Virus record (IMG/VR): IMGVR_UViG_3300025585_000032
Coordinates: 78,042-142,041 of that record
Reading direction: 5' to 3' (one strand)
DNA: 64,000 nucleotides
Source: a virus
In this document: positions 35,486-61,088 of the stretch, one piece after another
How positions within the stretch are numbered: the first letter of the stretch is position 1
Layout of the letters: the number at the start of each line of letters is the position of its first letter
Notes under the pieces: generated by a model
The model's input: the letters and a program-made list of their open reading frames with translations, nothing else
What the model was told of the DNA's origin: nothing
Database searches by the model: none
Program-made: the position numbers and the translations under genes

Positions 35486-35678
35486 TTGGAGATACTGGGA
35501 GAAGCATGACATGAAAGATAGTGAGTTTCTTTTTTGGTTGAGAGATAGACTCATCAATGTCTACGGTGAAGATCCACATATCGACTATGTTCAAAAACTA
35601 TATTCCATAGCCAGAAAAGTGGAAGATGATGAGAACTATTGGAATAGAGTAATAGATAGTTCTAGACAAACAGACTAA
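35472..35678 (+). CDS. Small hypothetical protein
   Basis: A 68-residue acidic protein overlapping the end of def by 14 bases. It contains 'FLFWLRDRLINVYGEDPHIDYVQKLYSIARKV', a pattern of short helices often seen in small phage accessory proteins. It ends just before the promoter of the DNA methyltransferase gene. No function recognised. Confidence 0.55.
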   Translation: MLESDWRYWEKHDMKDSEFLFWLRDRLINVYGEDPHIDYVQKLYSIARKVEDDENYWNRVIDSSRQTD

Positions 35679-35691
35679 ATCATGTTATGAT
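35663..35691 (+). promoter_or_regulatory. Sigma70-like promoter for the DNA-modification cassette
   Basis: TAGACA (35663-35668), 17-base spacer, TATGAT (35686-35691). The expected start is near 35698, leaving a leader of about 18 bases with an AGGA site before ATG 35716. A weak hairpin (AATCAT/ATGATT) overlaps the -10. Confidence 0.5.
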
Positions 35692-35715
35692 TGTTTTTTA
35701 TCATAGGATATCGTG

Positions 35716-36948
35716 ATGTACCAAAAATATACCGTTGATGATGTAAAGAAGTCTTCCGCTCGTAAATTGTTCAATGTGATTTCCACGTTTGCTGGCGGCG
35801 GTGGCTCTTCTACTGGATATCGTCTTGCTGGTGGTAATATCATCGCAATCAATGAATTCGTTGAAGAAGCAATCAAGACATACTCAACGAACTTTCCTGA
35901 CACCAAGATCATACCCGGCGACATCAAGAAATTGACTGCAAAAGACTTTCTTGATACAGCTGGACTCAAGCCTGGCGAACTTGATATTCTTGATGGATCT
36001 CCACCGTGTTCAGCATTCTCTGTTGCAGGTAAGCGCGAGAAGGGTTGGGCTGGACATGTCACAGATACACGCAAGTCATACTTTGACGATGATGGTAATA
36101 TCATTGAAGAAGGCGAACTTCTTGTTCAAGAAGGTATCAAGAAGTACTCTGATGGCAAGACCGTAGAAGCCATTGAAGATCTATTTTTGGAATTCATTCG
36201 TATCGCAAAAGAGATCAAGCCAAAGGTAATCGTTGCCGAGAACGTCAAAGGCATCACGTTTGGTGAAGCCAAAAGCAAACTATATGAGTTTGTCAATTCG
36301 TTTGAAAAGATTGGATATCAAGTTACATATCAGGTATTGAATGCAGCAGATTTTGGTGTGCCACAAGCAAGAGAGCGTACTCTATTTGTCTGCATACGCG
36401 AAGATGTATGTGATGCAATTGGCTTGAACTTCCTCAATATTCACTCTACTGTTTTTCCTAATGCAACATATGCAAAGCACATATCTTTGCGCGAGGCAAT
36501 TGAAGACATAGAGAATGATCCGAACGAATTGCAGGAACTCTATGACTATGTGCAAAATGGCTTTCAAAAAGATTGGATCACGAAACTACCTTTCAATCCA
36601 ACAAGACATACAAAGCCATCGGACAAGGAATTTCGCGATTGGAATCCCAAGGCATCATGCTTCAACATGATTCGCCCATGTCCAGATCTTCCGTCTCCAA
36701 CTTTGACTCAGCGCGGACAACAGAAGTCCGTATCTGGCGTGTTTCACTATGCCGAGAATAGAAAGTTCACGATCAAGGAATTGAAGCGTATCATGAGTCT
36801 ACCCGAAGACTTTGTTCTTACAGGCACGTTTGATCAACAGGCTGAGAGAATTGGACGCATGGTTGCACCAAAGATGATGGCTGCTCTTGCAGGTAGCATC
36901 TATGAAAATGTTTTGAAGCCATATAATGATAGCCAAGTTACTAAGTGA
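35716..36948 (+). CDS. C5-cytosine DNA methyltransferase family, predicted carboxymethyltransferase
   Basis: From ATG 35716 (410 residues; GTG 35713 is a poorer choice because AGGA sits too close to it). Motif I 'TFAGGGGSSTGY' (about 24-35), motif IV 'GSPPCS' with catalytic Cys98, motif VI 'ENVKG' (175-179), motif VIII 'QARERT' (217-222), motif IX-like 'PSPTLTQRG' and motif X 'IGRMVAP' (379-385). In nearly all C5-methyltransferases motif X reads G-N-(S/A)-V. Here the Asn is Arg (Arg381), next to the cofactor site. About 77 residues separate motifs IV and VI, roughly twice the M.HhaI spacing, so there is an insert at about 105-150. The next two genes are an AS-like PP-loop ATPase and a CmoA-like enzyme. 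I infer use of carboxy-SAM to make 5-carboxymethylcytosine. Plain 5-methylcytosine formation is the fallback. Confidence 0.85.
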   Translation: MYQKYTVDDVKKSSARKLFNVISTFAGGGGSSTGYRLAGGNIIAINEFVEEAIKTYSTNFPDTKIIPGDIKKLTAKDFLDTAGLKPGELDILDGSPPCSAFSVAGKREKGWAGHVTDTRKSYFDDDGNIIEEGELLVQEGIKKYSDGKTVEAIEDLFLEFIRIAKEIKPKVIVAENVKGITFGEAKSKLYEFVNSFEKIGYQVTYQVLNAADFGVPQARERTLFVCIREDVCDAIGLNFLNIHSTVFPNATYAKHISLREAIEDIENDPNELQELYDYVQNGFQKDWITKLPFNPTRHTKPSDKEFRDWNPKASCFNMIRPCPDLPSPTLTQRGQQKSVSGVFHYAENRKFTIKELKRIMSLPEDFVLTGTFDQQAERIGRMVAPKMMAALAGSIYENVLKPYNDSQVTK

Positions 36949-37717
36949 AGAAATAGAAAAAGCATCAAACGATATCAACGTCGCTGTACTTTTGTCTGGC
37001 GGCGTTGATAGCATTTCTGTGGCATTAGCAGCACATCGTGTTGGTAAGAAGATTACTGCATACACGTTTCATCTAAAAGACCAGCCGACATATGATGCAA
37101 GTAAAGCACAAGAAATAAGTAAGATCATGGGTTGGTCGTGCAAGACGATTGAAATTCCTGTTGACAATGTTATACGGGATTTCATTCGCCTTCGTCGTGA
37201 AGTAGATTGTCAGAAGAAGACACACTATGAATGCTGCTTTCCTTTTCTATATGTCTATCCGCAAATAGAAGAGAAAGAAGTGCTTAGTGGATGGGCTGCC
37301 GATGGTTACTATGGCGTATCCAAGAAAGCCAATCTACACTACAAGCATACGATGGAAAAGTTCAACGAATTTCGTGAAGATTATTTTCTGCTTGATCACT
37401 GTGCTGGCTATCTTTGGCACAAGAGGATTGCTGATATGCACAACAAGATCTTTATCACACCATATCTAACCGAGCCAGTAAAACAGTTTTTTTGGACCAA
37501 AGACTGGTATGAATTGAATCAGCCATTTCAGAAACACCATGTAGTAGAAGCATTTGATGAATTTTCTAGATTTGGTGCCGTAAAGAAACACATCAATCTG
37601 CAATTGGGCTCAGGTGTTGACAAACTGTTTGAATCTGTTATAATACCTGACAAGACGATCAACTATCGTAATAGAAAACGCATCATGGATATTTGCAAGG
37701 ATTGGAGAAATAGATGA
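36926..37717 (+). CDS. PP-loop ATPase, asparagine synthetase C-domain-like
   Basis: A 263-residue protein with the pyrophosphatase-loop 'SGGVDS' at residues 24-29, as in asparagine synthetase and related AMP-forming ligases. There is no N-terminal Ntn glutaminase domain, so ammonia or another amine would have to come from elsewhere. A Cys-rich patch 'DCQKKTHYECCFPFLY' (about 92-107) and 'SGWAADGYYG' (about 118-127) follow. Enzymes of this fold adenylate a carboxylate or a base carbonyl and attach an amine. The gene overlaps the methyltransferase by 23 bases and the CmoA-like gene by 4, so the three are one operon. I infer amidation of a carboxymethylated base in DNA. QueC/TilS roles are less likely because their partner genes and zinc motifs are missing. 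Confidence 0.75.
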   Translation: MIAKLLSEEIEKASNDINVAVLLSGGVDSISVALAAHRVGKKITAYTFHLKDQPTYDASKAQEISKIMGWSCKTIEIPVDNVIRDFIRLRREVDCQKKTHYECCFPFLYVYPQIEEKEVLSGWAADGYYGVSKKANLHYKHTMEKFNEFREDYFLLDHCAGYLWHKRIADMHNKIFITPYLTEPVKQFFWTKDWYELNQPFQKHHVVEAFDEFSRFGAVKKHINLQLGSGVDKLFESVIIPDKTINYRNRKRIMDICKDWRNR

Positions 37718-38400
37718 CACAAAAATTTACATTTGCCCAGCGCGAAGAGGGTTTTGACAATCACATTAGCCAGTCCATTCGCGGATACAACGACTTGATT
37801 GGTGATGTCATCAATCTCTCGCAGTATTTTGTAGAGAACGATACTGTCGTCTATGATATCGGCTGTTCAACTGGCAAGATGCTTCGTGCAATGATTGGTC
37901 AGAACGAGAAAATTGCACCTCGTGCCAATTATGTAGGAATTGAGATTGAAGAAGATTTCTTCAAGTTCTTTGATGAGAATGTTCAGAGTAATTTGGAGTT
38001 CATTCGGAATGATGTGCGTGATGTAAGTTTTGCTGTCAATACATCTTTGATCACTTCTATTTTCACTCTTCAGTTCATGCCCAGACAAGATCGTCAGGAT
38101 GTCATCAATCAAATCTATAACTGTTTGATTCCCGGTGGGGCGTTCATCTTTGCCGAGAAGACGATTGGCAACAATCCGATGATTCATGAGATGCGTACAT
38201 TCACCTACTATGATTTCAAGAAACTCAGTTTCACCTATGACGATATCATGACGAAGGAAAAGAAACTGCGTTCCATGTTGAAGTCCAATAGTCGTCAGGA
38301 ATTGATTGAAATGTGTGAGATTGCTGGATTCAATCCCAATTCAATTGATTCGTTCTGGCAAAACTTTGCGTTTACTGGATTCATTGCAATCAAGAACTGA
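37714..38400 (+). CDS. cmoA-like: CmoA-like carboxy-S-adenosylmethionine synthase
   Basis: A 228-residue class I SAM-binding protein that follows bacterial CmoA over its whole length: 'FDNHISQSIRGYNDLI' (CmoA 'FPDMIQRSVPGYSNII'), 'VYDIGCSTG' (CmoA 'VYDLGCSLG'), 'FTLQFM' (CmoA 'FTLQFL'), 'YNCLIPGGAFIFAEK', and 'LRSMLKSNS' near residue 186 (CmoA 'KRSMLENVM'). Arg186 aligns with E. coli Arg199, which salt-bridges the carboxylate of carboxy-SAM and marks the CmoA group among SAM enzymes. CmoA makes carboxy-SAM from SAM and prephenate; its usual user, the tRNA enzyme CmoB, is not in this window. The operon with a DNA methyltransferase suggests a DNA-directed use. Confidence 0.85.
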   Translation: MTQKFTFAQREEGFDNHISQSIRGYNDLIGDVINLSQYFVENDTVVYDIGCSTGKMLRAMIGQNEKIAPRANYVGIEIEEDFFKFFDENVQSNLEFIRNDVRDVSFAVNTSLITSIFTLQFMPRQDRQDVINQIYNCLIPGGAFIFAEKTIGNNPMIHEMRTFTYYDFKKLSFTYDDIMTKEKKLRSMLKSNSRQELIEMCEIAGFNPNSIDSFWQNFAFTGFIAIKN

Positions 38401-42519: not shown

Positions 42520-43335
42520 ATGGAAATTTCTATCTCTGTTGACGAACTACGCAAAAGAAAGTTGTTTATCGCCACACCAATGTATGGTGGTATGGCAAAT
42601 GGACTTTACATGAAGTCCTGTCTAGATCTACAGTCTATACTAAATCAATATGGCGTTGAAGCCAAGTTTTCATTTCTATTCAACGAATCCCTCATCACTC
42701 GCGCAAGAAATTATTTGACTGATGAGTTTTTGAGAAATGAACAGTTTACTCATCTTCTATTTTTGGATTCGGATATTCACTTTAATCCACAAGATGTTGT
42801 CACGATGCTTGCACTTGACAAGGACATCATTGGTGGACCATATCCCAAGAAGTCAATCAATTGGGGTAATGTTGCAAACGCCGTAAGAAGCAAGCCTGAT
42901 ATTGAGGCTGGAGAACTTGAAGGATTGGTTGGCGAATTTGTATTCAATCCTGTTGCTGGAACAAAGCAGTTCTCTATTACTGAACCACTTGAAGTCATGG
43001 AAATCGGAACAGGTTTCATGATGATCAAGCGAGAGGTCTTCAAGAAGTTTGAAGACGCATATCCAGAGTATCGTTACAAGCCAGATCATGTTGGTCAAAA
43101 GCATTTTGACGGCTCGCGATACATTCATGCATATTTTGATACGATCATTGATCGTGGACCAAATGCTCCTGGCTCATCCGAGAGATACCTTTCAGAAGAT
43201 TATTTCTTCTGTCAGATGAGCCGTAAAATCGGCATCAAGATTTGGTTGTGCCCGTGGATGAAGACGCAACACGTTGGCACATATGCGTTTACTGGTGATC
43301 TTCCAAGAATTGCACAGTATACGGGACGTATATGA
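42520..43335 (+). CDS. GT-A type glycosyltransferase
   Basis: ATG 42520 preceded by TTGGAG (42508-42513) gives 271 residues. The N-terminus 'LFIATPMYGGMANGLYMKSCLDL' and the acidic motif 'LLFLDSDIHF' (about 84-93, a DxD-type motif) indicate a metal-dependent GT-A fold. A C-terminal 'SEDYFFCQMSRKIGIKIWLCP' follows the family pattern. The sugar donor and acceptor cannot be told. It lies apart from the main sugar cluster at 49.9-62.3 kb and overlaps the kinase gene by ATGA. Confidence 0.75.
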   Translation: MEISISVDELRKRKLFIATPMYGGMANGLYMKSCLDLQSILNQYGVEAKFSFLFNESLITRARNYLTDEFLRNEQFTHLLFLDSDIHFNPQDVVTMLALDKDIIGGPYPKKSINWGNVANAVRSKPDIEAGELEGLVGEFVFNPVAGTKQFSITEPLEVMEIGTGFMMIKREVFKKFEDAYPEYRYKPDHVGQKHFDGSRYIHAYFDTIIDRGPNAPGSSERYLSEDYFFCQMSRKIGIKIWLCPWMKTQHVGTYAFTGDLPRIAQYTGRI

Positions 43336-43940
43336 TTATTGGATTTGTTGGTACTATCGGTAGCGGTAAAGGAACTGCTGGCGATATATTGGCGCAGCGG
43401 GGCTTCTTTACTGAAAGTTTCGCTGCGCCTCTAAAGGATATAACTGCAAGTCTTTTCGGTTGGCCAAGACATCTTGTCGAAGGTGATACAACTGAGTCTC
43501 GCGAATTTCGTGAAACAAGAGACGAGTGGTGGTCCAATAGATTCGGCAAAGATATCACTCCGCGTTTGATATTGCAGCTCATTGGTACTGAGTGTATGCG
43601 CGAGTGTATACACTCAGACTTCTGGGTTGCGTGTCTCGAAAGACGAATAAAGCAGAATCACGATTATGTGATTACAGATGTTCGTTTTCCTAACGAGATT
43701 GATTCCATTCACAAGATGGGTGGAAAGATTGTAGAGATTCAACGCGGAAAACCTGCGGATTGGTATGTACATGCTTGCATGTATAACAATGGCGATTCTG
43801 GTGTAAAGCCTAGTGCTCATTATTCGGAGTGGGCATGGATGGGATACAAGACTGACTACACATTGAACAATGATGGGTCTTTGGAAGACCTTGAAAATGA
43901 CATTGAATTGATGCTTGAGTGCTTGACACCACCAAGGTAA
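43332..43940 (+). CDS. 1: Deoxynucleoside monophosphate kinase (gp1-like)
   Basis: A 202-residue P-loop kinase with 'GTIGSGKGT' at residues 7-15 and the phage dNMP kinase patterns 'FAAPLKDITASLFGW', 'RLILQLIGTECMRECIHSDFWV' and 'DYVITDVRFPNEIDSIHKMGGKIVEI'. It phosphorylates dNMPs for phage DNA synthesis. T4 gp1 handles dTMP, dGMP and hydroxymethyl-dCMP; here no dCMP hydroxymethylase was seen. Confidence 0.88.
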   Translation: MIIGFVGTIGSGKGTAGDILAQRGFFTESFAAPLKDITASLFGWPRHLVEGDTTESREFRETRDEWWSNRFGKDITPRLILQLIGTECMRECIHSDFWVACLERRIKQNHDYVITDVRFPNEIDSIHKMGGKIVEIQRGKPADWYVHACMYNNGDSGVKPSAHYSEWAWMGYKTDYTLNNDGSLEDLENDIELMLECLTPPR

Positions 43941-49594: not shown

Positions 49595-49918
49595 ATGAGA
49601 TATATTGGATACTCAGTCTCTCGTTGTATACGCGACATAGTAAAGAAGCGTGTCAATATCTACGCAGTAGAAGTTATCATTGGTCGTACCTCAATAGAAA
49701 ATGAGCAGCATGTAGCAGAAGTTGCTCGCGGATATCACAGTCTACCAAAGGGCGATTATCGTTCTTGGAATGATTTGGATTATGATGCATGTCATGGAGT
49801 TCTTCTGGAACTGTATCGTGATGGTAAGTTACATCAGCCAAGATTGTTTGGTAAGTATCCAATTCGCATGGACAATCATTGGGGTGTGATTGCTCCGTTT
49901 CCCATGAGCGCATTCTGA
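49595..49918 (+). CDS. Hypothetical protein
   Basis: ATG 49595 with GGAG at 49583-49586 gives 107 residues. It is mildly basic with several aromatics ('YIGYSVSRCIRDIVKKRVNIYAVEVIIGRTS', 'GKLHQPRLFGKYPIRMDNHWG'). No domain recognised. It overlaps the next gene by one base and opens the sugar gene series. Confidence 0.6.
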   Translation: MRYIGYSVSRCIRDIVKKRVNIYAVEVIIGRTSIENEQHVAEVARGYHSLPKGDYRSWNDLDYDACHGVLLELYRDGKLHQPRLFGKYPIRMDNHWGVIAPFPMSAF

Positions 49919-50643
49919 TGAGAGCCGTTGTTATAATTCCAACAACAGGCGACAAAAAAGTCCTAGAAGCAATCAAGAGCGTCGAAAATCAAACTTATGC
50001 TGATACGAGTTATCTCGTCGTTGTTGATGGTAACAAGTTCAAGCATAAGTTTGATGATCTGTTTGTAAATTCTGATCCATACATGCCACCTAAAGATGTC
50101 GTGTATCTAAAGCACAACACAGGTGCTGATGGATTCTACGGTCATCGCATATATGCAGGATTCTCGCATCTGGTGAATGAAGATATTGTTCTCTTTCTTG
50201 ATCAGGACAATTGGTTTGAGCCAGATCATGTTGAAAAACTTATAAGCATAATTCAAACTGAAAATCTTACATGGGCTCATAGCCTTCGCAACATCTATGA
50301 CAAAGACAACAATTTTCTTTGTCGTGATGATTGCGAAAGTTTAGGTAAATGGCCTGTGTGGAATGGTCTAGATAATTTTCATGTAGACACATCTGCATAT
50401 GCATTTCGTCGTGAATTCATATCTCAAGTCGCATCGCTTTGGCACTCTGGTTATGCTGGTGATCGTCGCTTTTTCAATATGGTTAGAACAATACCAAATG
50501 CGCCATATGGCACAAGTGGTGCATACACATTGAATTATAGACTTGATGGTAATCCAAATTCAGCGTCACCCGACTTCTTTCTTCATGGCAATAGAGTCAT
50601 GGAGCAAAAATATTATGGAAAATATCCTTGGAGAAAAGCATGA
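49918..50643 (+). CDS. Family 2-like glycosyltransferase
   Basis: ATG 49918 overlaps the previous stop and gives 241 residues. A GT-A fold is indicated by 'AVVIIPTTGDKKVLEAIKSVENQTY', 'YLVVVDG' and the acidic 'VLFLDQDNWFEPDHVEKL' (DxD-like). Residues 'DTSAYAFRREFI' follow the family 2 acceptor region. It probably transfers a sugar from a nucleotide donor. Donor and acceptor unknown; the same operon encodes GDP-fucose and dTDP-deoxysugar enzymes. Confidence 0.8.
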   Translation: MRAVVIIPTTGDKKVLEAIKSVENQTYADTSYLVVVDGNKFKHKFDDLFVNSDPYMPPKDVVYLKHNTGADGFYGHRIYAGFSHLVNEDIVLFLDQDNWFEPDHVEKLISIIQTENLTWAHSLRNIYDKDNNFLCRDDCESLGKWPVWNGLDNFHVDTSAYAFRREFISQVASLWHSGYAGDRRFFNMVRTIPNAPYGTSGAYTLNYRLDGNPNSASPDFFLHGNRVMEQKYYGKYPWRKA

Positions 50644-51218
50644 GTAACATAAAAATTGAATATATGCAACAGTATGGCTCTGGTAAGATATTTGTAGAGA
50701 CTGGAACATATCTTGGAGATACCGTTGAACTTGCATTGAATGCAGGATTTGAGTATGTACATACTATTGAAGTGGATCAAGGTATGTATGATAAGTGTCA
50801 CGCACGATTCAAGGATAATTCTAAGGTCAAGTTGTGGCTTGGTGATTCGGTAGATATCATTCCACAGATTGTTGATGAATTGATAGAACCAGCAACATTT
50901 TGGCTTGATGCTCATGCAAGTGGTCCACTTCAAGGTGGTCGTTATGCACCATGTCCACTTGTGCTGGAACTTGAAGCAATCTATGGAAAGAAGAAGTTGC
51001 GTTTTACTGAACGTGGCTCTGAAATGTTTCGCGAAAAGTCTTCAATAGATACACACACGATCATGATTGATGATCGGCGTCTATTGGGTTCTGCTGAATG
51101 GGGATATGTGCAAGAGAAGCAGATCATGGATCTTCTATTTGCAATCAATCCAAACTATAAGATTCATTATCTTGATGGTCATCAAGCCAATGATATCATT
51201 TGTGCTACGGTGAGATAA
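50640..51218 (+). CDS. Class I SAM-dependent methyltransferase-like protein
   Basis: ATG 50640 (ATGA overlap, GGAG at 50630) gives 192 residues. 'KIFVETGTYLGDTVELALNAGFEYVHTIEVD' is a SAM-binding motif I/II pattern, followed by 'WLGDSVDIIPQI' and 'FWLDAHASG'; 'HTIMIDDRR' lies further on. It may methylate a sugar or glycan made by the operon. No DNA-methyltransferase motif is present. Confidence 0.65.
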   Translation: MSNIKIEYMQQYGSGKIFVETGTYLGDTVELALNAGFEYVHTIEVDQGMYDKCHARFKDNSKVKLWLGDSVDIIPQIVDELIEPATFWLDAHASGPLQGGRYAPCPLVLELEAIYGKKKLRFTERGSEMFREKSSIDTHTIMIDDRRLLGSAEWGYVQEKQIMDLLFAINPNYKIHYLDGHQANDIICATVR

Positions 51219-51219
51219 C

Positions 51220-52083
51220 ATGAAAGATCTTATTTTAGGATGCATCACAAATTACACTTTTGACAAGATTGCAAACTGGGTCAATTCAATTGAACGTTCG
51301 GGCTTTACTGGACACAAAGTTGTCATTGCATATAATGTTGGATTTGACATTGTAGATGAACTAACAAAAAGAAACTTTACTGTAGTCACTTTCAATCGTG
51401 ATGACGCGAATAGACGATTTACATATCGTGAAAATTTCAATATTGTCGTTGATCGTTTCTATCATTCTTGGAAAGTATTGAGTGATATTGAAAACGAGGT
51501 GCGATATGTGATAGCCACGGATGTTAGAGATGTTGTTTTTCAAACAAATCCTACAGAATGGTTAGATAGTCTTTTGCCCTCAGAATTTAATACGTTAATT
51601 GCATCAACCGAAGGGATTAGATATAAGAATGAAGTTTGGGGAAACAACAATATGAAGTTGAGTTTTCCTTTCGTTCATGAATACATGATGAATAGGGGCA
51701 TTTATAATGCGGGTGTCATGGCAGGAAAAGTGTCTGTAATCAAGGATTTGTTCTTGAATATATTCATGATCTGTGCTAATATGCCTCATACTATTCCTGG
51801 TGGAGGTGGACCAGATCAAGCTGCATATAACGTATTGCTAACAATGAATCAGTATGAAAATATCACACGATTTACTATTGCCAAAGATGCATGGGCAGCA
51901 CAACTTGGAACAGTTGCTGATCCAAACAAGATAAATCAGTACAGACCATACTTGACAGACTTTGAGCCAGTCATTCAAAACGGCGAAGTCTTCAATAACG
52001 AAGGTCGTAAGTACTGCATTGTTCATCAATACGATAGAGTGCCGAATCTTCTTCCACTAATTAATTCAAAATATGGAACATGA
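51220..52083 (+). CDS. GT-A nucleotide-sugar transferase-like protein
   Basis: A 287-residue protein with a Rossmann-like N-terminus ('DLILGCITNYTFDKIANWVNSI'), 'HKVVIAYNVGFDIVDEL', and the acidic 'YVIATDVRDVVFQTNP' (DxRD at about residues 106-109), the metal site of several GT8/GT77-like transferases. 'GGGGPDQAAYNVLL' resembles the donor-site motif of the same families. It is probably a glycosyltransferase; donor unknown. Confidence 0.7.
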   Translation: MKDLILGCITNYTFDKIANWVNSIERSGFTGHKVVIAYNVGFDIVDELTKRNFTVVTFNRDDANRRFTYRENFNIVVDRFYHSWKVLSDIENEVRYVIATDVRDVVFQTNPTEWLDSLLPSEFNTLIASTEGIRYKNEVWGNNNMKLSFPFVHEYMMNRGIYNAGVMAGKVSVIKDLFLNIFMICANMPHTIPGGGGPDQAAYNVLLTMNQYENITRFTIAKDAWAAQLGTVADPNKINQYRPYLTDFEPVIQNGEVFNNEGRKYCIVHQYDRVPNLLPLINSKYGT

Positions 52084-52084
52084 C

Positions 52085-52720
52085 ATGTCAGATGTAATTA
52101 GAATCAATACTGCAACAAACGCTTTTCAAAAAGTTGAAAGACCATTAACGATTGCCGAATATAAAGAGCAAGGAAAATGGCCATTTGATTTTATTTCTGG
52201 AAAAGGTCTTGTTAGTGTAATCAACAATCTATCTGTAAGTCTAGATAGAAATGTTGTTGGACTAGAAATTGGTATTTGTAAAGGTGAAAACATTGTTCAC
52301 TTCTTTGAACAGACAAATAGAATCGACAAGATTCATTGTATTGATCCATATCTACCATACATGGATTGGGTTGGACCAGTAACGCAAGAGGATATGGATC
52401 TATGGTATGATATCACGATGAAGAATTTTGCTCCGTACATGGACAAGATCGTGATGTACAAGGACACATCAGACAATTGCGTAAGCAAGTTTAAAGATGG
52501 ACAATTTGACTACATCTTCATAGATGGCGATCATTCATATGAAGGTGTTATTAAAGACTTATATAATTATTATGACAAGTTAAGAGTTGGTGGTATTTTT
52601 TCTGGTCATGATATTAATCTTCCAGACGTTCAAAGAGCATTGAAAGAGTTTAGATCAATAAAGGGTATTGAAAAAGAAATGAAGTTTACTGATGTAAACG
52701 TTTGGTACTGGGTAAAGTAA
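52085..52720 (+). CDS. Class I SAM-dependent methyltransferase (Methyltransf_24-like)
   Basis: ATG 52085 has GGAAC just upstream and gives 211 residues; ATG 52073 is an alternative. 'VVGLEIGICKGENIVHFFEQ' is motif I, 'KIHCIDPYLPYMDWVG' follows, and 'FDYIFIDGDHSYEGVIKDLYNYYDKLRVGGIFSGHDIN' is the typical motif IV to V block of this family. Probably modifies a sugar or a small molecule. It overlaps the fucosyltransferase start by one base. Confidence 0.78.
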   Translation: MSDVIRINTATNAFQKVERPLTIAEYKEQGKWPFDFISGKGLVSVINNLSVSLDRNVVGLEIGICKGENIVHFFEQTNRIDKIHCIDPYLPYMDWVGPVTQEDMDLWYDITMKNFAPYMDKIVMYKDTSDNCVSKFKDGQFDYIFIDGDHSYEGVIKDLYNYYDKLRVGGIFSGHDINLPDVQRALKEFRSIKGIEKEMKFTDVNVWYWVK

Positions 52721-53589
52721 TGCAAAAGAAACCATTGAAACTTGGATTTGTTGACGTATGCACATCCGAGTTTTATGAGACGATTCTATCTCAAAGATAT
52801 GACTTGACGATAGATAATGAAAATCCAGATTTTCTTTTCTTTGGTGATGAAAACTTTGGAACAAAAAATCTCCAATACTCAAAAGATAAGTGCATAAAGA
52901 TTTTTCATACTGGCGAAAATCGTAGACCAGAAAATTATGATTGTCATTATGCCACGACTTTTGATCATAATCCTAATCCATGGCATTATAGATTACCTGG
53001 TTATGCTTTGGTTCCATTCTTCTATAAGAAATTTGAGTTTACACATATTTTTAATGCACACAACATCAAGCATCTAAAAACAAAGTTTTGTGTGTTTATA
53101 CATCGCAATCCAAACAACAATGTGCGAAATGCTGTATTTCATGAACTATGCAAGTATAAGAAAGTTGATAGTGCCGGACCATTATTTAATAATATTGGAC
53201 ATGTAATTAGTCCAGACTATGATGCAAAACTTGATTTTATCAAGAACTACAAGTTTGTTCTTTCATTTGAGAATAGTCCACATCCAGGATATGTGACTGA
53301 AAAGATAATGGATGGATTCTATGTCAATTCGGTTCCAATCTACTGGGGTTCATCTACGATAGATCTAGACTTCAATGAAGCATCTTTCATCAATGCGGGA
53401 AATTTTGATTCAATGGAATCATTCATCAATTATGTAATCAAGATTGATAACGATGATACACTATACAACAACATGATTTCACAACCAAAACTAAAGCATG
53501 GTCTTCCCCCTTCGTGCATGATTTATGATAATTTCTTGAATTGGTTTGATGCTATTGTATACAATAAATTATATCCGAGAGTGAAATGA
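52720..53589 (+). CDS. GT10 alpha-1,3/4-fucosyltransferase
   Basis: ATG 52720 (overlap TAATG) gives 289 residues. The GT10 motif is unmistakable at about 182-210: 'FENSPHPGYVTEKIMDGF' then 'VPIYWGSSTI'. Upstream 'FHTGENRRP' matches the first conserved block. GT10 enzymes transfer fucose from GDP-fucose, and GDP-fucose synthase lies 3 kb downstream in the same operon. Phage GT10 enzymes are uncommon; acceptor unknown. Confidence 0.92.
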   Translation: MQKKPLKLGFVDVCTSEFYETILSQRYDLTIDNENPDFLFFGDENFGTKNLQYSKDKCIKIFHTGENRRPENYDCHYATTFDHNPNPWHYRLPGYALVPFFYKKFEFTHIFNAHNIKHLKTKFCVFIHRNPNNNVRNAVFHELCKYKKVDSAGPLFNNIGHVISPDYDAKLDFIKNYKFVLSFENSPHPGYVTEKIMDGFYVNSVPIYWGSSTIDLDFNEASFINAGNFDSMESFINYVIKIDNDDTLYNNMISQPKLKHGLPPSCMIYDNFLNWFDAIVYNKLYPRVK

Positions 53590-54563
53590 AAAAGCACAAG
53601 AAGATCATTGTATGGGGTGCAAAATATGAAACGGGACACACTCATGCATTTACACATGCAGCTTTTGTCAAAGGCGCACAATACCTAAATGAAGAAGTCT
53701 ATTGGCTTGACGATACAGACAATGTTGATCCTTCATTCTTTGACGATTCGCTAATCGTATCAGAACATTGGATAGCAACAACACACCCAAGAAGTCATCG
53801 TCTACCACTAAGAAAGTCATCAACATATGTGATGAATTACTTGGGCAACAAGAAAGGCACCGACAATCCGGGCGCTTCATATTATCTTGGTAGAGTTGGA
53901 AGAATCATAGATTTTAGATTTGCAAACAATTGGTCTGACAAATATTGGGAATACAAATACGAACCTGAAAAGTATATCCCAATAAATGATGGTGTTTCTC
54001 ATCTAGAAAGAGGATCTGAATACGATAATTTCTATAGCATGTGGGCTACAGATCTCATGCCAAACGAGATCAATTTTGATGATTGCTTGACACCATGGAA
54101 AGAACCAAAGCACGTTTTCTTTTCTGGTACAATTCGTGAAGACAATCGTGATCAATTTGAGCCATTTATTCGTGCATGTTCAGAAAATAAAATGAATTTT
54201 TACTTCAATGATGTGTGGCGTCAAGTTCTAACGATTGAATCCGTTAAGAGAGCATCACTTGATGCGTTTCTTGCTCTTGAACTTCGTCCAAAGTTTCATG
54301 TTGATATTGGATACAAGTCATGTCGCGCATTCAAGGTCATTAGTTATGGGCAACTTGGCATGACAAACTCTCGCGCTGTTTATGATTTCTTTGATCAGGA
54401 AATTGCATTTCATGAAGATCCGTATCAGCTATTCCATGTAGCATCAGAGATGCGAAACAATCCAAAGACAAAAGATCTTGTTCTCAATCAAATGAAGAAG
54501 GTAAAAGAGAAGCATACATATGCTAGTAGGATGAAGGATATTATTACTGCTTGTGAAATGTGA
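53586..54563 (+). CDS. Putative GT-B-like glycosyltransferase
   Basis: A 325-residue protein. N-terminal 'KKIIVWGAKYETGHTHAFTHAAFVKGAQYLNEEVYWLDD' and C-terminal 'KFHVDIGYKSCRAFKVISYGQLGMTNSRAVYDFF' (a GT-B-like donor-site pattern with an 'R..E/K...G' arrangement) suggest a two-domain transferase. The family is not clear to me. Coupled by ATGA to the fucosyltransferase upstream. Confidence 0.55.
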   Translation: MKKHKKIIVWGAKYETGHTHAFTHAAFVKGAQYLNEEVYWLDDTDNVDPSFFDDSLIVSEHWIATTHPRSHRLPLRKSSTYVMNYLGNKKGTDNPGASYYLGRVGRIIDFRFANNWSDKYWEYKYEPEKYIPINDGVSHLERGSEYDNFYSMWATDLMPNEINFDDCLTPWKEPKHVFFSGTIREDNRDQFEPFIRACSENKMNFYFNDVWRQVLTIESVKRASLDAFLALELRPKFHVDIGYKSCRAFKVISYGQLGMTNSRAVYDFFDQEIAFHEDPYQLFHVASEMRNNPKTKDLVLNQMKKVKEKHTYASRMKDIITACEM

Positions 54564-54571
54564 GGTTTATT

Positions 54572-55513
54572 ATGGGCACCATTCTGGTTACTGGCGGCGC
54601 TGGTTATATTGGTAGTATTTTCGTAGAACAATTATTGAAAATAGGCGGTCATAGAGTTTGTGTTCTTGACAATCTATATTACAATAATCAATCATCTCTA
54701 AATCACTTGATGCATGATCCATATTTGGAAGTCAGACGCGGAGATGTTCGCAAGCCAAGTGACATAGATCCACTGCTCAAGAAAGCAGACATTATCGTCC
54801 CACTTGCCGCTCTCGTTGGCGCACCAATATGCAATAGAGATCCAGTTGCAGCATCTTCCACAAATAAAGACGCAATATTTGAAATGCTGGACAAGATTAG
54901 TCCAGAACAAACTATCATCATGCCTACGACAAATAGTGCATATGGTTCTGGTGACAAGGATAATTTTTGTACGGAAGAGTCGCCTCTGAATCCAATCTCA
55001 CTTTATGCCAGAGACAAGGTTGAAGTAGAAAAGAGGTTGATGCAGCATAAGAATGCAATTAGCCTAAGGCTTGCTACCGTGTTTGGCATGTCGCCTCGTA
55101 TGCGTCTTGATTTGCTTGTAAATGATTTCACATATCGTGCTGTGCATGATGGATTTGTCGTTCTATTTGAAAGTCACTTCAAGAGAAACTATATTCATGT
55201 TCGCGATGTATCAAATGCATTTATTCATTGCATGAATAACTTTGAAAAGATGAATGGTCAAATCTACAATGTCGGTCTTTCAAATGCAAATATATCCAAA
55301 CTTGAATTGTGCAAGATGATCAAGAGTCTTGTTCCAAAGTTTACTTTCATGGAAGCACCATATGGACAAGATCCAGATCAACGCAACTACATAGTATCAA
55401 ACGCTAAGATTGAAGCAACTGGATTCAAGCCAGAATACTATCTACAGGATGGTCTTGTTGAATTGATCAAGGGCTATGAACTTATTCGTAATACTCGTCA
55501 TGGAAATGTGTGA
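54572..55513 (+). CDS. NAD-dependent sugar epimerase/dehydratase (extended SDR)
   Basis: ATG 54572 with GAGG at 54562-54565 gives 313 residues. 'VTGGAGYIGS' binds NAD(P), 'VPLAALVG' follows, and the Tyr of 'YARDKVEVE' with Lys four residues later is the catalytic pair (preceded by Thr-Asn-Ser in 'PTTNSAYGSGD'). The substrate is a nucleotide sugar that I cannot identify; 'LYARDKVEVEK' replaces the common YxxxK form with a standard spacing. Confidence 0.82.
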   Translation: MGTILVTGGAGYIGSIFVEQLLKIGGHRVCVLDNLYYNNQSSLNHLMHDPYLEVRRGDVRKPSDIDPLLKKADIIVPLAALVGAPICNRDPVAASSTNKDAIFEMLDKISPEQTIIMPTTNSAYGSGDKDNFCTEESPLNPISLYARDKVEVEKRLMQHKNAISLRLATVFGMSPRMRLDLLVNDFTYRAVHDGFVVLFESHFKRNYIHVRDVSNAFIHCMNNFEKMNGQIYNVGLSNANISKLELCKMIKSLVPKFTFMEAPYGQDPDQRNYIVSNAKIEATGFKPEYYLQDGLVELIKGYELIRNTRHGNV

Positions 55514-56496
55514 TGATCATAATAAGAACTCCGTATAGAATTTCATTCTTTGGTGGCGGCACGGATTATCCTGCTTGGTATAGGGAGCATGGTGGCTGTG
55601 TCTTGTCCACCTCCATAAACAAGTGCAGTTTTCTTGTTCTTAGAAAGTTGCCGGAAATATTCGACTATAGATACAAGATTCGTTACTTTGCTGATGAAAC
55701 AACAAAGTGCGTGGACGACATCCAGATACCAGTCATTCGCGAGGCAATCAAATACATGAATTTTGAAGACGGATTGGACATCACACATCATGGTGATCTT
55801 CCAAATCGCACAGGCATCGGATCAAGTTCAAGTTTTACTGTATCACTAATTCACGGATTGGCTACTCTCAAGAATGAACAAATTACCAAGAGAGATCTTG
55901 CTCGCAAGTCGATCTATCTGGAGCAAAATGTTCTTCGTGAAGCTGTTGGATCGCAAGATCAAGTTGCCGCTGCATTTGGCGGTTTCAATAGAATTGAATT
56001 TGGCGGATATACGGATTTTACTTGCTACTCGTTGCATCTCAAGAAGGATATTCTACAGGAACTTGAGTCGTGGGTTCAATTATTCTTTACAGAGAAACTT
56101 CGCAATTCATTTGATATCGCCGAGAAGAAGATAACAAATATTAGTTCAAAAAAAGTTGATCTAAACATCATGAAGGACTTGACACATGAAGCAGAGCGTG
56201 TATTATATGAACATAGAATATATGACTTTGCAAATCTTCTCAATGATCAATGGAAACTAAAGAAAAGCATGGAGTCATCAATCACAAACACCGAGATTGA
56301 TGATATCTACGACAAAGGCATTCAGGCTGGTGCTGTAGGAGGAAAGTTGTTGGGTGCTGGTGGTGGTGGATTCATTCTATTCTTGACACCGCCACATATG
56401 CAAAAGAAAGTTGCTGAGAAGTTGAAACTCAGACAAGTACCATTGAACTTTGACTATCTTGGAAGTCAATTGATTTATCACGATTATCAGAATTGA
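55513..56496 (+). CDS. GHMP sugar kinase (heptose-7-phosphate kinase-like)
   Basis: ATG 55513 (overlap TGATG; GTG 55510 is an alternative) gives 327 residues. The N-terminus 'RTPYRISFFGGGTDYPAWY' and ATP motif 'LPNRTGIGSSSSFTVSLI' and 'GAVGGKLLGAGGGGFILFL' are typical of the GHMP kinases acting on D-glycero-D-manno-heptose 7-phosphate (HddA type). With the nucleotidyltransferase at 58419 it could activate a heptose or related sugar. The exact substrate is inferred. Confidence 0.8.
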   Translation: MIIIRTPYRISFFGGGTDYPAWYREHGGCVLSTSINKCSFLVLRKLPEIFDYRYKIRYFADETTKCVDDIQIPVIREAIKYMNFEDGLDITHHGDLPNRTGIGSSSSFTVSLIHGLATLKNEQITKRDLARKSIYLEQNVLREAVGSQDQVAAAFGGFNRIEFGGYTDFTCYSLHLKKDILQELESWVQLFFTEKLRNSFDIAEKKITNISSKKVDLNIMKDLTHEAERVLYEHRIYDFANLLNDQWKLKKSMESSITNTEIDDIYDKGIQAGAVGGKLLGAGGGGFILFLTPPHMQKKVAEKLKLRQVPLNFDYLGSQLIYHDYQN

Positions 56497-56503
56497 GGTT
56501 ATC

Positions 56504-57454
56504 ATGAAAAAGATTTATGTTGCTGGGCATAGCGGTCTCGTAGGGTCTGCTATTGTTAGAATGTTGCGTGAGCATGGTGAAACAAACATTGTCACACGCA
56601 CATCAAAAGAACTTGACTTGACAAATCCTATTGCAGTTGAAGAATTCTTCACGCAAGAAAAGCCAGATGAAGTCTATCTTGCTGCTGCAAAAGTTGGTGG
56701 TATCGTAGCAAATAATACTTTTCCTGCGGACATGATTAACATCAATCTACGCATACAAACGAATGTAATTGATACAGCATATCGTCATGGCGTGCAAAAG
56801 TTGTTGTTCTTGGGATCAACGTGCATCTATCCTCGCGAATGCCCACAACCGATCAAGGAAGAATATCTACTCACAGGTCATCTTGAAATTACAAATGATG
56901 CATATGCAATCGCAAAGATTGCAGGAATAAAGATGTGTCAAGCATATAATCGTCAACATGGAACTGATTATCGTGCTGTAATGCCGAGCAATGTATACGG
57001 ACCTGGCGATAATTTTCATCCAGAAAACAATCATCTCGCGGCTGGGCTAATGCGTAAGTTTCATGAAGCAAAGTTCAACGAAACAAAAGCGGTTTTATGG
57101 GGAACTGGAACACCTCGTCGCGAATTTCTATATTGCGATGATCTTGCTCGTGGATGCATTCATGTATTGAATGCTCCAAAAGATGAGTTTGCAAAGACGG
57201 GTGGATTCGTCAATCTTGGTCCGGGATACGATCTAGAGATTCGCGATTTTGCTGAGATACTTGCAAAAGTCGTTGGATATAATGACGACTTCTTGTATGA
57301 TTCATCTCGTCCTGACGGTACTATGCGTAAGCTGACGGACGTATCAAAAGCACATGCACTTGGCTGGAGACCTCAGATTTCTCTTGAAGATGGACTAAGA
57401 AGAATGTATAATTGGTACGTTGATGGTCTCAAGAATGGAACAGTAAGAACATGA
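56504..57454 (+). CDS. fcl: GDP-L-fucose synthase
   Basis: A 316-residue extended SDR close to Fcl/WcaG. 'VAGHSGLVGSAIVR' binds NADPH, 'AAAKVGGIVANNTFPADMI' and 'LFLGSTCIYPRECPQPIKEE' are diagnostic, and the catalytic Tyr-Lys lie in 'YAIAKIAG' (about Tyr135, Lys139). It converts GDP-4-keto-6-deoxymannose to GDP-L-fucose. GDP-mannose 4,6-dehydratase is not in the window, so the host or another phage gene must supply the substrate. Confidence 0.94.
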   Translation: MKKIYVAGHSGLVGSAIVRMLREHGETNIVTRTSKELDLTNPIAVEEFFTQEKPDEVYLAAAKVGGIVANNTFPADMININLRIQTNVIDTAYRHGVQKLLFLGSTCIYPRECPQPIKEEYLLTGHLEITNDAYAIAKIAGIKMCQAYNRQHGTDYRAVMPSNVYGPGDNFHPENNHLAAGLMRKFHEAKFNETKAVLWGTGTPRREFLYCDDLARGCIHVLNAPKDEFAKTGGFVNLGPGYDLEIRDFAEILAKVVGYNDDFLYDSSRPDGTMRKLTDVSKAHALGWRPQISLEDGLRRMYNWYVDGLKNGTVRT

Positions 57455-58422
57455 AGTATGTTGTGACTGGTGGAGCAGGTTATATCGGTAGTCATGTAGT
57501 TGATGAACTATTAAGACGTGGTCATGAAGTTGTGGCAATTGATAATCTATCCACTGGTCAAATGAGATTTATTGAGCATAATCTAGATAACAAGAACTTT
57601 ACATTTGTTCGGGGTGATATCAATGGGAATCTTTCTTTTCTTGGCGATACTGACGCGGTATACCATTTTGCTGCGAATGCTGACATAAGAAAGGGGTTCA
57701 AGAATCCAAATCTTGACTTCAAGAACAACATTGAAGGAACAATGAATCTATTGCAATCCATGAACTACCATGGAGTCAAGAGGATGATATTTGCATCAAC
57801 TTCGGCAGTTCTTGGAGAAGTTGATAGAGAAAGATTGCCTGCTTCCGAGAGAGTTGCCATGCCAGAGCAAACCTCGTTGTATGGCGCATCAAAGTTGGCG
57901 GGTGAAGGTTTGATTTCTGCATTTTGCGAAGGCTTTGATTTTGAAGCATATGTATTTCGTTTCGTGACTGTTCTTGGTCCAAGATATCCACACGGCTTTG
58001 CATTTGACTTCGTCAAGAAACTCTTGAATAATCCATATTATCTAGAAGTTCTTGGTGATGGCACAGGAATAAAGAGTTCCATTCATGTGTCAGATGTTGT
58101 TTCGGCCGTGACTATGATTGGTGAAGATATCAGACCAGCAAGAGACAAGAAGCGACGATATGAAGTATTCAATATTGGTAATGATGTCACATATCGAGTC
58201 TCTGATGCAGCACAATGGGTTGCGAATGCGATGGGCGTGACTCCAGACATCGTATATGGAAATACGTTAAAGGGTTGGCCTGGTGATATTCCTTATATTC
58301 ATCTGGATACATCAAAGATCAAATTGTATGGATGGAAGTCAAATTATACACCAAAGCAAGCCATACATGAAACTGTTGATTGGCTTCTTCACAATCGCTG
58401 GATATATGAGGTTCGTCAATGA
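57451..58422 (+). CDS. UDP-glucose 4-epimerase-like SDR
   Basis: A 323-residue GalE-like epimerase: 'VTGGAGYIGSHVVDELLRRGHEVVAIDNLSTG', 'VYHFAANADIRKGF', 'RMIFASTSAVLGE', catalytic 'SLYGASKLAGE' and 'LDTSKIKLYGWK'. It probably epimerises or dehydrates a nucleotide sugar for the glycan. Coupled by ATGA to fcl and to the next gene. Confidence 0.85.
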   Translation: MKYVVTGGAGYIGSHVVDELLRRGHEVVAIDNLSTGQMRFIEHNLDNKNFTFVRGDINGNLSFLGDTDAVYHFAANADIRKGFKNPNLDFKNNIEGTMNLLQSMNYHGVKRMIFASTSAVLGEVDRERLPASERVAMPEQTSLYGASKLAGEGLISAFCEGFDFEAYVFRFVTVLGPRYPHGFAFDFVKKLLNNPYYLEVLGDGTGIKSSIHVSDVVSAVTMIGEDIRPARDKKRRYEVFNIGNDVTYRVSDAAQWVANAMGVTPDIVYGNTLKGWPGDIPYIHLDTSKIKLYGWKSNYTPKQAIHETVDWLLHNRWIYEVRQ

Positions 58423-58859
58423 GCACGATTGTAATCGTGAGTGGCGGATTTGATCCGATTCACTCTGGTCATATCGAATACTTCAAGTCCGCAAGAATGT
58501 TTGGCATGAGATTGTATGTTGGTGTCAACTCTGATAATTGGTTAACACGCAAGAAGGGTAACTTCTTCATGCCATTTGAAGAGCGTTTGAAGATTGTTCA
58601 AAGCATACGATACGTTGATCAAGCAATGGGCTTCAATGACGACGACGATAGTGCTGCAAGTTTGATTAGAAACATACGCAGAGATAATCCTGATGCATTG
58701 CTAATCTTTGCCAATGGTGGTGATAGAATCGGCGGCACTCGTCAAAGTGAACTTGAAATGCAGGCGGCAGATGACAAGATTATATTTGCAGTCGGCGTCG
58801 GTGGAATCAAGAAGATAAATTCTTCTTCCGATATTCTCAAAAGATGGAAAACTTCATGA
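58419..58859 (+). CDS. HxGH nucleotidyltransferase (cytidylyltransferase-like)
   Basis: A 146-residue protein with 'GGFDPIHSGHIEYF' (HxGH at about 14-17) and 'YVGVNSDNWLTRKKG', as in sugar-phosphate nucleotidyltransferases of the TagD/HldE-C type. The usual 'ISST' motif near the end reads 'INSSSDIL'. It probably activates a phosphosugar, possibly that made by the GHMP kinase. Confidence 0.82.
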   Translation: MSTIVIVSGGFDPIHSGHIEYFKSARMFGMRLYVGVNSDNWLTRKKGNFFMPFEERLKIVQSIRYVDQAMGFNDDDDSAASLIRNIRRDNPDALLIFANGGDRIGGTRQSELEMQAADDKIIFAVGVGGIKKINSSSDILKRWKTS

Positions 58860-59593
58860 AAAAGGCAATAGTATTTGTTCCTACAGGAAATAATCCTGAT
58901 ACATTTGACGATAGATATGACAAGAATGCACATTGGCGATCAAAGCATTTAGAGAGAACATACGAGATAGTTGGATCTATTTACAAGGAGGGATTTATTC
59001 CAGATCCTAGTTCATACGATTATATCTATGATATTCGTGGTCACAAGTGGCAAATGATTCGTGAAGTATTCAAGCAATTTGATTATTCAAAGTATGATTA
59101 TGTTTGTTGTATTGATGACGATCAAATTACGGATGTATGGAATCTAAACAAAGGTCTTGAACTGGCTCGTCGTTTTGATTTTCGCATATGGCAATTGTCA
59201 ATGGCAGAAGGGTCTGACCTATTTTATAATATCTTGAGACAAGATAAATCATGTGATTTTTCTGAGACAAATTTTGTCGAGATTGGTGTTCCTTGTTTTC
59301 GTGTAGATGTCTTTGAAAAGATCCTTCGTGTTCTAGACAAATGGGATTTTACCATAGGCTATGGTCTGGACAAGGCTTTTTGTGATATAGCACAAACAAT
59401 GGCAAATGTTGTTCATTGTGCATCAATATATCATCCACCTCGTCATAGATATTATGACAAGACAAATGCAATGAGAGAACATGATCAATTTCTGTATAGC
59501 GATTATCCGAGAATATGCAGAGAATTATTCAATCGTGAACCATTAGTGATAGATAGACAATATACGACAAACAAATATAAAATTGCGGAGTGA
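58856..59593 (+). CDS. GT-A-like glycosyltransferase (DUF707-like)
   Basis: ATG 58856 (ATGA overlap) gives 245 residues. 'FDYSKYDYVCCIDDDQITDVWNLNKGLELARRFDFRIWQLSM' carries a DDD metal motif as in DUF707-type transferase-like proteins, and 'IGYGLDKAFCDI' and 'VHCASIYHPPRHRYYDK' follow the same family order. Enzyme activity of this family is not firmly known; a transfer role in the operon is inferred. Confidence 0.65.
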   Translation: MKKAIVFVPTGNNPDTFDDRYDKNAHWRSKHLERTYEIVGSIYKEGFIPDPSSYDYIYDIRGHKWQMIREVFKQFDYSKYDYVCCIDDDQITDVWNLNKGLELARRFDFRIWQLSMAEGSDLFYNILRQDKSCDFSETNFVEIGVPCFRVDVFEKILRVLDKWDFTIGYGLDKAFCDIAQTMANVVHCASIYHPPRHRYYDKTNAMREHDQFLYSDYPRICRELFNREPLVIDRQYTTNKYKIAE

Positions 59594-59598
59594 TAAAA

Positions 59599-60147
59599 AT
59601 GATTATTGATTTAGGTGCTGGTCCATGGCCAAAGGCTGATGCAACAGTATGTGTGGATGTCAACAAGTGGAGAGACAACTATATCATACACGATCTATCA
59701 TCTTTACCGTATCCATTTGAATCAAATGTAGCAGATAAGATCTACTTTGGCGATGTGATTGAACATCTCTCAAAGTTCATTGTTGATGATGTTCTAAAAG
59801 AGATTCATCGTGTTCTAAAACCAGGAGGATTTCTAGAGATCACAACACCCGACATTGAATGGGTTGCTGAGAGAATCTACAAGAAAGACTGGCATATCAT
59901 GGCAAATGTAGATTGGCTCAACAAGAACAAGGATCCATTTGAAGATGCTATGGAAGTAATTTATGCTGGATGGCTTCATGAGACGGATCACAAGATTCCT
60001 GGCATGGGTCATATCAATGGTTTCAATCAAGAAAAATTGACAAAATATTTGACTCGTGCTGGATTCAAGAGTACAATGAGAGTTCCTGATATGAGAAATC
60101 CCGAACCTGCTCGTGGTTCTGTATTGAAGATGTTGGCCTATAAATGA
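59599..60147 (+). CDS. Class I SAM-dependent methyltransferase (Methyltransf_11-like)
   Basis: ATG 59599 with GCGGAG at 59585-59590 gives 182 residues. 'IIDLGAGPWPKADATVCVDVN' is motif I, 'ADKIYFGDVIEHLSKF' and 'EIHRVLKPGGFLEITTPD' complete a typical small-molecule methyltransferase. It lies between sugar genes, so sugar methylation is the likely role. Confidence 0.8.
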   Translation: MIIDLGAGPWPKADATVCVDVNKWRDNYIIHDLSSLPYPFESNVADKIYFGDVIEHLSKFIVDDVLKEIHRVLKPGGFLEITTPDIEWVAERIYKKDWHIMANVDWLNKNKDPFEDAMEVIYAGWLHETDHKIPGMGHINGFNQEKLTKYLTRAGFKSTMRVPDMRNPEPARGSVLKMLAYK

Positions 60148-61088
60148 GAAAACTTCTTGTTACTGGTGGTGCTGGATTTATTGGCATCAACTTCATAAAG
60201 CATATACTTGATGTTGACAAAGTTGACATTGTTGTTGCTGATAGATTCACATATGCAAGTAATCCAGAAGAACTCATCAATAATATGAAGATTGACACCC
60301 ATTGCATGGACTTATCGGACGCGACATCTGTTGAAAGTCTATTCAAGATGCATGAGATTACCCATGTCGTGCATTTTGCCGCAGAGAGCCACGTTGATAG
60401 ATCAATCAAGGACTGTCAACCTTTCATACAATCAAATATCATTGCAACAGTCAATCTACTAAATGAAGCAATGAAATATAAAGTTCAAAAGTTCGTTCAC
60501 ATATCTACGGATGAAGTTTTTGGCGAAATTGCGATACCAGGTAAATTCAATGAACTTTCAAATATATGTCCAAGAAATCCATACTCTGCTAGCAAGGCTT
60601 CAGCCGAACATTTTGTAGAAGCATATGGTAATACATATGGATTTCCATATACTATAATCAATTCATCAAACAATTATGGTCCATGGCAGTATCCCGAAAA
60701 GTTTATTCCTCTAGCGATTAATCGTATTCTAAAAAAGCAAAAAGTTCCGGTATATGGAACTGGTAGTCAGATTCGCGATTGGATCTTTGTCAAGGATGCA
60801 GCTGAAGCAATTCGTCGTGTACTTCATCATGGGAACACACATGATAGATATTGCATCGGTGGCGAACAAGAAATAAGAAACATTGATCTTCTTCGCATGA
60901 TAATTCAAAAAATGAACGTAGATGAAAATCTAATAGAGTACGTTACTGATCGTCCTGGGCATGATGCAAGATATGCCACATCAATACTCAAGATTAAAAG
61001 AGAGTTGAAGTGGGTGCCAGAGTACAATCTATCTGATGGATTGAATGAAACGATAGAGTGGATAAAGAAACATGAAAATAGGATTTAA
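60144..61088 (+). CDS. rmlB: dTDP-glucose 4,6-dehydratase-like enzyme
   Basis: A 314-residue RmlB homologue: 'VTGGAGFIGINFIKH', 'VHFAAESHVDRS', 'ISTDEVFGE' (Asp and Glu at about 123-124 act in the dehydration step), 'RNPYSASKA' (Tyr/Lys pair), 'NNYGPWQYPEKFIPLAI' and 'DRPGHDARYA'. It makes the 4-keto-6-deoxy sugar from dTDP-glucose. RmlA and RmlC are absent from the window. Confidence 0.92.
   Translation: MRKLLVTGGAGFIGINFIKHILDVDKVDIVVADRFTYASNPEELINNMKIDTHCMDLSDATSVESLFKMHEITHVVHFAAESHVDRSIKDCQPFIQSNIIATVNLLNEAMKYKVQKFVHISTDEVFGEIAIPGKFNELSNICPRNPYSASKASAEHFVEAYGNTYGFPYTIINSSNNYGPWQYPEKFIPLAINRILKKQKVPVYGTGSQIRDWIFVKDAAEAIRRVLHHGNTHDRYCIGGEQEIRNIDLLRMIIQKMNVDENLIEYVTDRPGHDARYATSILKIKRELKWVPEYNLSDGLNETIEWIKKHENRI

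Follow-up and report, generated by a model that had tools for sequence, protein, structure and literature searches.

Introduction

The closest described relative of the locus reported here is the DNA-modification system of Synechococcus phage S-B43 (Yang et al., Nat Commun, December 2025; PMC12783734). In that phage, CmoA (SpCmoA) makes carboxy-SAM (Cx-SAM), CmoX (SpCmoX) moves the carboxymethyl group onto C5 of cytosine to give 5-carboxymethylcytosine (5cxmC), accepting Cx-SAM only and not SAM, and CmoY (SpCmoY), an asparagine-synthetase-like ligase, couples glycine to 5cxmC; 5gcxmC was detected in the S-B43 phage genome. In the crystal structure of SpCmoX (PDB 8YF3), Arg350 replaces the Asn of motif X and binds the carboxylate of Cx-SAM. 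The target of SpCmoX is a GC motif, and it is for this enzyme, and only against HhaI, that protection was shown. The same study listed 5,615 CmoX candidates (some of them from IMG/VR), described clusters of ligases that differ in their active sites and whose amines were not identified, and mentioned ParB-domain partners on other contigs (PMC12783734).

Here we describe a related gene cluster in a 64,000-base stretch of viral DNA (hereafter the window; bases 78042 to 142041 of a 142,041-base virus record). Judged by its sequence and by analogy with the S-B43 enzymes, the cluster very probably encodes a CmoX-CmoY-CmoA DNA hypermodification cassette in which the coupled amine would most likely be glycine and the modified cytosines would protect against restriction enzymes. 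IMG/VR holds contigs near-identical to this locus, which may therefore well be among the published candidates.

Results and Discussion

Organization of the gene cluster

An earlier reading made from the sequence alone (the sequence-only reading) had described a C5-cytosine methyltransferase, a stand-alone PP-loop enzyme and a CmoA-like enzyme, with gene overlaps of 23 and 4 bases. Family calls for the three open reading frames (Pfam, PHROGs and NCBIfam) were unambiguous, all three genes lie on the same strand (Table 1), and the overlaps are as described. By sequence comparison, each of the three proteins is an orthologue, over its full length, of its counterpart in the characterized S-B43 trio. 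An in-frame GTG at 35713 lies one codon upstream of the cmoX ATG, but the ATG is the more likely start.

Table 1. Features of the cmoX-cmoY-cmoA cluster (positions in the window)
Feature	Position	Strand	Details
Sigma70-like promoter sequence TAGACA-17-TATGAT	35663..35691	+	Ahead of cmoX; 10/12 consensus
cmoX, DNA cytosine C5-carboxymethyltransferase homologue	35716..36948 (ATG start)	+	410 aa; Pfam DNA_methylase E 6e-58
cmoY, ATP-dependent PP-loop amide ligase (by homology)	36926..37717	+	263 aa; Pfam Asn_synthase E 5e-12
Exact sigma70 consensus TTGACA-16-TATAAT, extended -10	37617..37644	+	12/12; inside cmoY 3' end
cmoA, carboxy-SAM synthase homologue	37714..38400	+	228 aa; TIGR00740 CmoA E 6e-28

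The cluster had also been credited with its own sigma70-like promoter. The sequence is present, but promoter-like sites occur in the region at chance frequency (12 versus 10.3 expected), and it is therefore weak evidence of a promoter. Across related loci (L numbers), the site ahead of cmoX is kept in the close relatives L009 and L010, diverged with TATAAT retained in L012, L016, L019 and L020, and missing in L011. The exact consensus ahead of cmoA was absent from the earlier description; it is kept in L009 to L011 and altered in L012, in a stretch that is also under coding constraint, and is a possible extra promoter for cmoA. In one close relative, a 478-aa open reading frame with a weak GmrSD_N match and an apparent HNH-type C terminus lies between cmoX and cmoY (L011:3775-5211).

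CmoX keeps the catalytic and Cx-SAM-contact residues of the S-B43 enzyme

The best PDB match to the window CmoX was SpCmoX (8YF3; E 1e-110), with HaeIII and HhaI well behind; the window CmoX and SpCmoX were 53% identical over aligned residues in a pairwise alignment. All nine residues named by Yang et al. (PMC12783734) are kept (F25, E47, F48, D69, S95, P96, P97, C98 and R381), with the SPPC motif that carries the catalytic Cys at the same numbers in both enzymes. In two alignments, R381 corresponded to R350 of SpCmoX and so replaces the motif X Asn (N304 in HhaI). Among 66 aligned sequences, the catalytic Cys and the positions of HhaI E119 and R165 (the Glu and Arg of the active site, which contact cytosine) were invariant, and motif X was Arg in 63. 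Ordinary 5-methylcytosine (5mC) writing by the window CmoX was rejected on account of the motif X Arg.

The three exceptions at motif X were M.HhaI (Asn), a divergent Staphylococcus phage enzyme (Gly) and the enzyme of Methylophilales phage Melnitz (Leu). In an SPbeta-like Staphylococcus phage (L003:5666-6670), a CmoA gene lies beside an HhaI-like methyltransferase with Gly at motif X, where the alignment is poor. The CmoX-like methyltransferase of Methylophilales phage Melnitz-3 (L100:3995-6179) has no CmoA nearby and adjoins a Tet/JBP-type oxygenase, which suggests methylation and then 5mC oxidation instead of carboxymethylation, and makes this enzyme a useful negative control.

The presumed target-recognition region of the window CmoX differs from that of SpCmoX by several insertions, so it may recognize a motif other than GC. 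At a ratio of 1.13, the window shows no depletion of GC dinucleotides, which weighs on neither side, and counts of GC dinucleotides and palindromes gave no usable signal on the target motif.

Identity of the ligated amine

The window CmoY is a stand-alone PP-loop synthetase domain that adjoins CmoX and CmoA and aligns with SpCmoY along its entire length at 51% identity; a Pfam search found no glutaminase domain in it. Because a PDB sequence search with CmoY gave no significant match, its predicted fold was compared instead. The AlphaFold2 model (built from 18 related sequences; pLDDT 91, pTM 0.89) matched the synthetase domains of beta-lactam synthetase (E 3e-10) and asparagine synthetase B (E 7e-10) with TM scores of 0.7 to 0.8. 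The protein is intact and conserved, with many invariant columns in the 18 sequences. In a SAR116 single-cell assembly (L108:4996-7134), a single 713-aa reading frame encodes a fusion of CmoY and CmoX, and the ligase and CmoX likewise share one frame in an alphaproteobacterial MAG (L132:5140-7065), in both cases with CmoA upstream. Such fusions are a strong sign that both proteins act in one pathway.

The sequence-only reading had proposed that the PP-loop enzyme couples ammonia or another amine to the carboxyl group. Orthology to SpCmoY supports the amide, whereas ammonia is an improbable amine for a ligase that has no glutaminase domain. The window CmoY and SpCmoY share the motifs C95-x-K-K-T-H-(Y/F)-E-C (Tyr in the window protein) and S-K-K (132-134). 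Neither K97 nor K133 is conserved in three ligases with a glutaminase domain, which presumably use ammonia, and both lysines are therefore candidates for gripping the carboxylate of an amino acid. Since the ligase groups with SpCmoY and has no glutaminase domain of the kind found in the putative ammonia users, the amine is, from sequence comparison, most likely glycine and not ammonia.

It is unlikely that the pathway is the same but ends in a different 5cxmC amide, the ligase attaching ammonia or an amino acid other than glycine. The distinct ligase clusters reported in PMC12783734 leave room for other amines, and 51% identity to SpCmoY falls short of near-identity. At that level, however, the protein would be expected to cluster with SpCmoY in the published network (threshold of approximately 30% identity), and its core motifs match those of SpCmoY, including the two lysines that the glutaminase-domain ligases have not kept; for ammonia in particular, the ligase has no domain of its own to supply it. 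We see a slightly smaller chance that a non-glycine amine gives this virus an undescribed cytosine side chain, possibly at a motif other than GC.

Association of CmoX with CmoA in related loci

The sequence-only reading had suggested a search for the same order of the three genes in other phage genomes. Relatives of the gene set recur in many independent viral contigs, and the cluster is therefore not a product of chance. When viral loci were collected by their CmoA, a CmoX accompanied it in 77 of 80; in the remaining three, the contig is cut short a little upstream of cmoA. Bacterial genomes in a genome collection were scanned with the CmoX alignment alone as the seed, so that there was no selection for CmoA. 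Counting the best methyltransferase per locus, a CmoA homologue was present in 20 of the 23 loci whose motif X residue is Arg and in none of the 40 in which it is Asn (Fisher P = 1e-13). Copies within a lineage are not independent, and because a few Verrucomicrobia genomes supply many of the Arg-type loci, the effective sample is smaller, although 0/40 stands. The contrast lends independent comparative support to the Arg criterion of Yang et al.: CmoA accompanies the homologues with Arg at motif X and not those with Asn.

Several Verrucomicrobia MAGs (loci L109, L119-L123, L125, L126, L128-L130 and L133) carry more than one CmoX(Arg)-CmoA pair per genome, with up to six loci in one MAG. The genes of these pairs overlap, many lie on long contigs and none has CmoY nearby; these multicopy loci of putative carboxymethyltransferases lie in apparent bacterial chromosomes.

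No CmoY could be recognized in the neighborhood of approximately half of these 80 related loci from viruses, so 5cxmC without amidation may be common. For the window virus itself, a cassette that makes only 5cxmC in vivo, with a ligase that is inactive or acts elsewhere, is very improbable. Those loci, and the CmoX and CmoA of phage S-CRM01 with no recognizable CmoY near them, are what such a reading has in its favor, but in the window cmoY is intact and conserved and overlaps both of its partners, and elsewhere CmoY is fused to CmoX.

CmoA and the carboxylate-binding Arg

TIGR00740 was by far the best model for the window CmoA (98 bits versus an NCBIfam cut-off of 193); the experimentally proven SpCmoA also falls under this cut-off (116 bits). 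E. coli CmoA (PDB 4GEK/4IWN) was matched at E 1e-20. In the E. coli enzyme, Arg199 salt-bridges the carboxylate (PMC3663124). The window CmoA does not have this residue: E182 aligns with Arg199, and R186 lies one helical turn later. This Glu/Arg arrangement recurs in SpCmoA, which is active and likewise has no Arg199, and the E. coli residue therefore does not define the family. Arg was found at E. coli position 203 (R186 in the window) in 61 of 65 aligned CmoA sequences, and Arg199 with Glu203 in three of the others (E. coli and two phage enzymes). This reciprocal swap (R199/E203 versus E199/R203) suggests that the putative carboxylate-binding Arg has moved between two positions one helical turn apart.

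Bacterial CmoA acts on tRNA, and phage homologues are annotated as tRNA methyltransferases by PHROGs and in GenBank, yet the notion that this CmoA serves the tRNA wobble base cmo5U with a host CmoB, while the methyltransferase makes 5-methylcytosine and the two are neighbors by chance, is barely credible given the motif X Arg (in place of Asn) that co-occurs with CmoA, the recurring gene overlaps and the biochemistry of the S-B43 orthologues. A search of the whole record found no CmoB; the search was sensitive, because the control was found in all 14 of 14 genomes. No tRNA genes were found in the window, and on both counts a role in tRNA modification was rejected.

The virus and its genomic setting

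The window carries T4-like genes for the gp23 major capsid protein, a gp22-type scaffold, UvsW, sliding clamp, clamp loader and late sigma factor. The capsid protein is nearest to those of Stenotrophomonas phage DLP_6 and of Methylophilales and Pelagibacter phages, and a search for psbA-family genes found none, so this large T4-like virus is probably one of a heterotrophic bacterium and not a cyanophage. A near-identity DNA search of a phage collection turned up only a gene annotated in porphyrin biosynthesis (approximately 73%). An Rfam search of the window gave no matches, and ParB-domain partners were absent from the whole record.

Two further regions of the window were noted. A long cluster of glycosyltransferase, fucosyltransferase-like, GDP-mannose dehydratase-like, epimerase and GHMP kinase genes (49879 to 62330) is a probable phage set for sugar-nucleotide and glycan synthesis. 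A T4 gp1-like deoxynucleotide monophosphate kinase is encoded at 43332 to 43940; in T4, the gp1 kinase accepts a modified nucleotide.

Proposed pathway

Gene content, active-site residues and orthology can be read from the DNA itself, and it is from the S-B43 enzymes that we infer the reactions and the product in this virus. CmoA would convert host SAM and prephenate to Cx-SAM. CmoX would then flip a cytosine out of duplex phage DNA, Cys98 attacking C6, and transfer the carboxymethyl group to C5 while Arg381 holds the carboxylate, by which we propose that Cx-SAM is selected over SAM. CmoY, with ATP, would adenylate the carboxyl of 5-carboxymethylcytosine and couple the amine, most likely glycine, to give 5-glycylcarboxymethylcytosine, and the modified cytosines may protect the phage genome against restriction enzymes; evasion of Cas nucleases, which the sequence-only reading also proposed, would be a further prediction. 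Taken together, the three genes almost certainly enable the virus to put carboxymethyl groups on cytosines in its own DNA, to which glycine is then probably added.

Comparison with known systems

The route put forward in the sequence-only reading, from CmoA through Cx-SAM and a C5-methyltransferase homologue to a PP-loop amide ligase, matches the chemistry demonstrated for the S-B43 orthologues (PMC12783734), whose diagnostic residues are kept in the window proteins. It had been offered as a candidate for novel chemistry, which it is not, the system having already been published for S-B43. If the amine or the target motif should differ from that of S-B43, the locus would supply a new enzyme with which DNA could be given carboxyl or amide handles.

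Among single enzymes, M.MpeI N374K, an engineered methyltransferase as cited in PMC12783734, likewise has a basic residue in place of the motif X Asn and accepts Cx-SAM; it is described there with an engineered Lys and a CG target, whereas the window CmoX has a natural Arg. The window CmoY shares its fold and the PP-loop SGGVDS with the synthetase domains of asparagine synthetase B and beta-lactam synthetase (PDB 1CT9 and 1MC1), but has no N-terminal glutaminase-type domain and is only 13 to 16% identical to these enzymes. The window CmoA has the fold and the SAM-binding residues Y39 and D62 in common with E. coli CmoA but, like SpCmoA, has Glu in place of Arg199 and an Arg at position 203, one turn further on. 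The cmoA-cmoX pair of Synechococcus phage S-CRM01 encodes a CmoA 50% and a CmoX 51% identical to the window proteins but, unlike the window, has no cmoY near it.

The nearest system remains that of S-B43, with the same three stand-alone enzymes in one gene cluster, a single-domain PP-loop ligase in both, and identical catalytic and Cx-SAM-contact residues in CmoX. Identity between the two sets is 53% for CmoX, 51% for CmoY and 46% for CmoA. The window CmoX is 38 residues longer than SpCmoX, with insertions around 111-140 and in the presumed target-recognition region; the gene order is cmoX-cmoY-cmoA in the window versus cmoA-cmoY-cmoX in S-B43; and the window virus, unlike S-B43, is probably not a cyanophage. 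The window trio is thus a further example of the published DNA-modification system and not a new system, and it widens the range of the 5-carboxymethylcytosine pathway to include a T4-like virus, probably not a cyanophage, with a different gene order.
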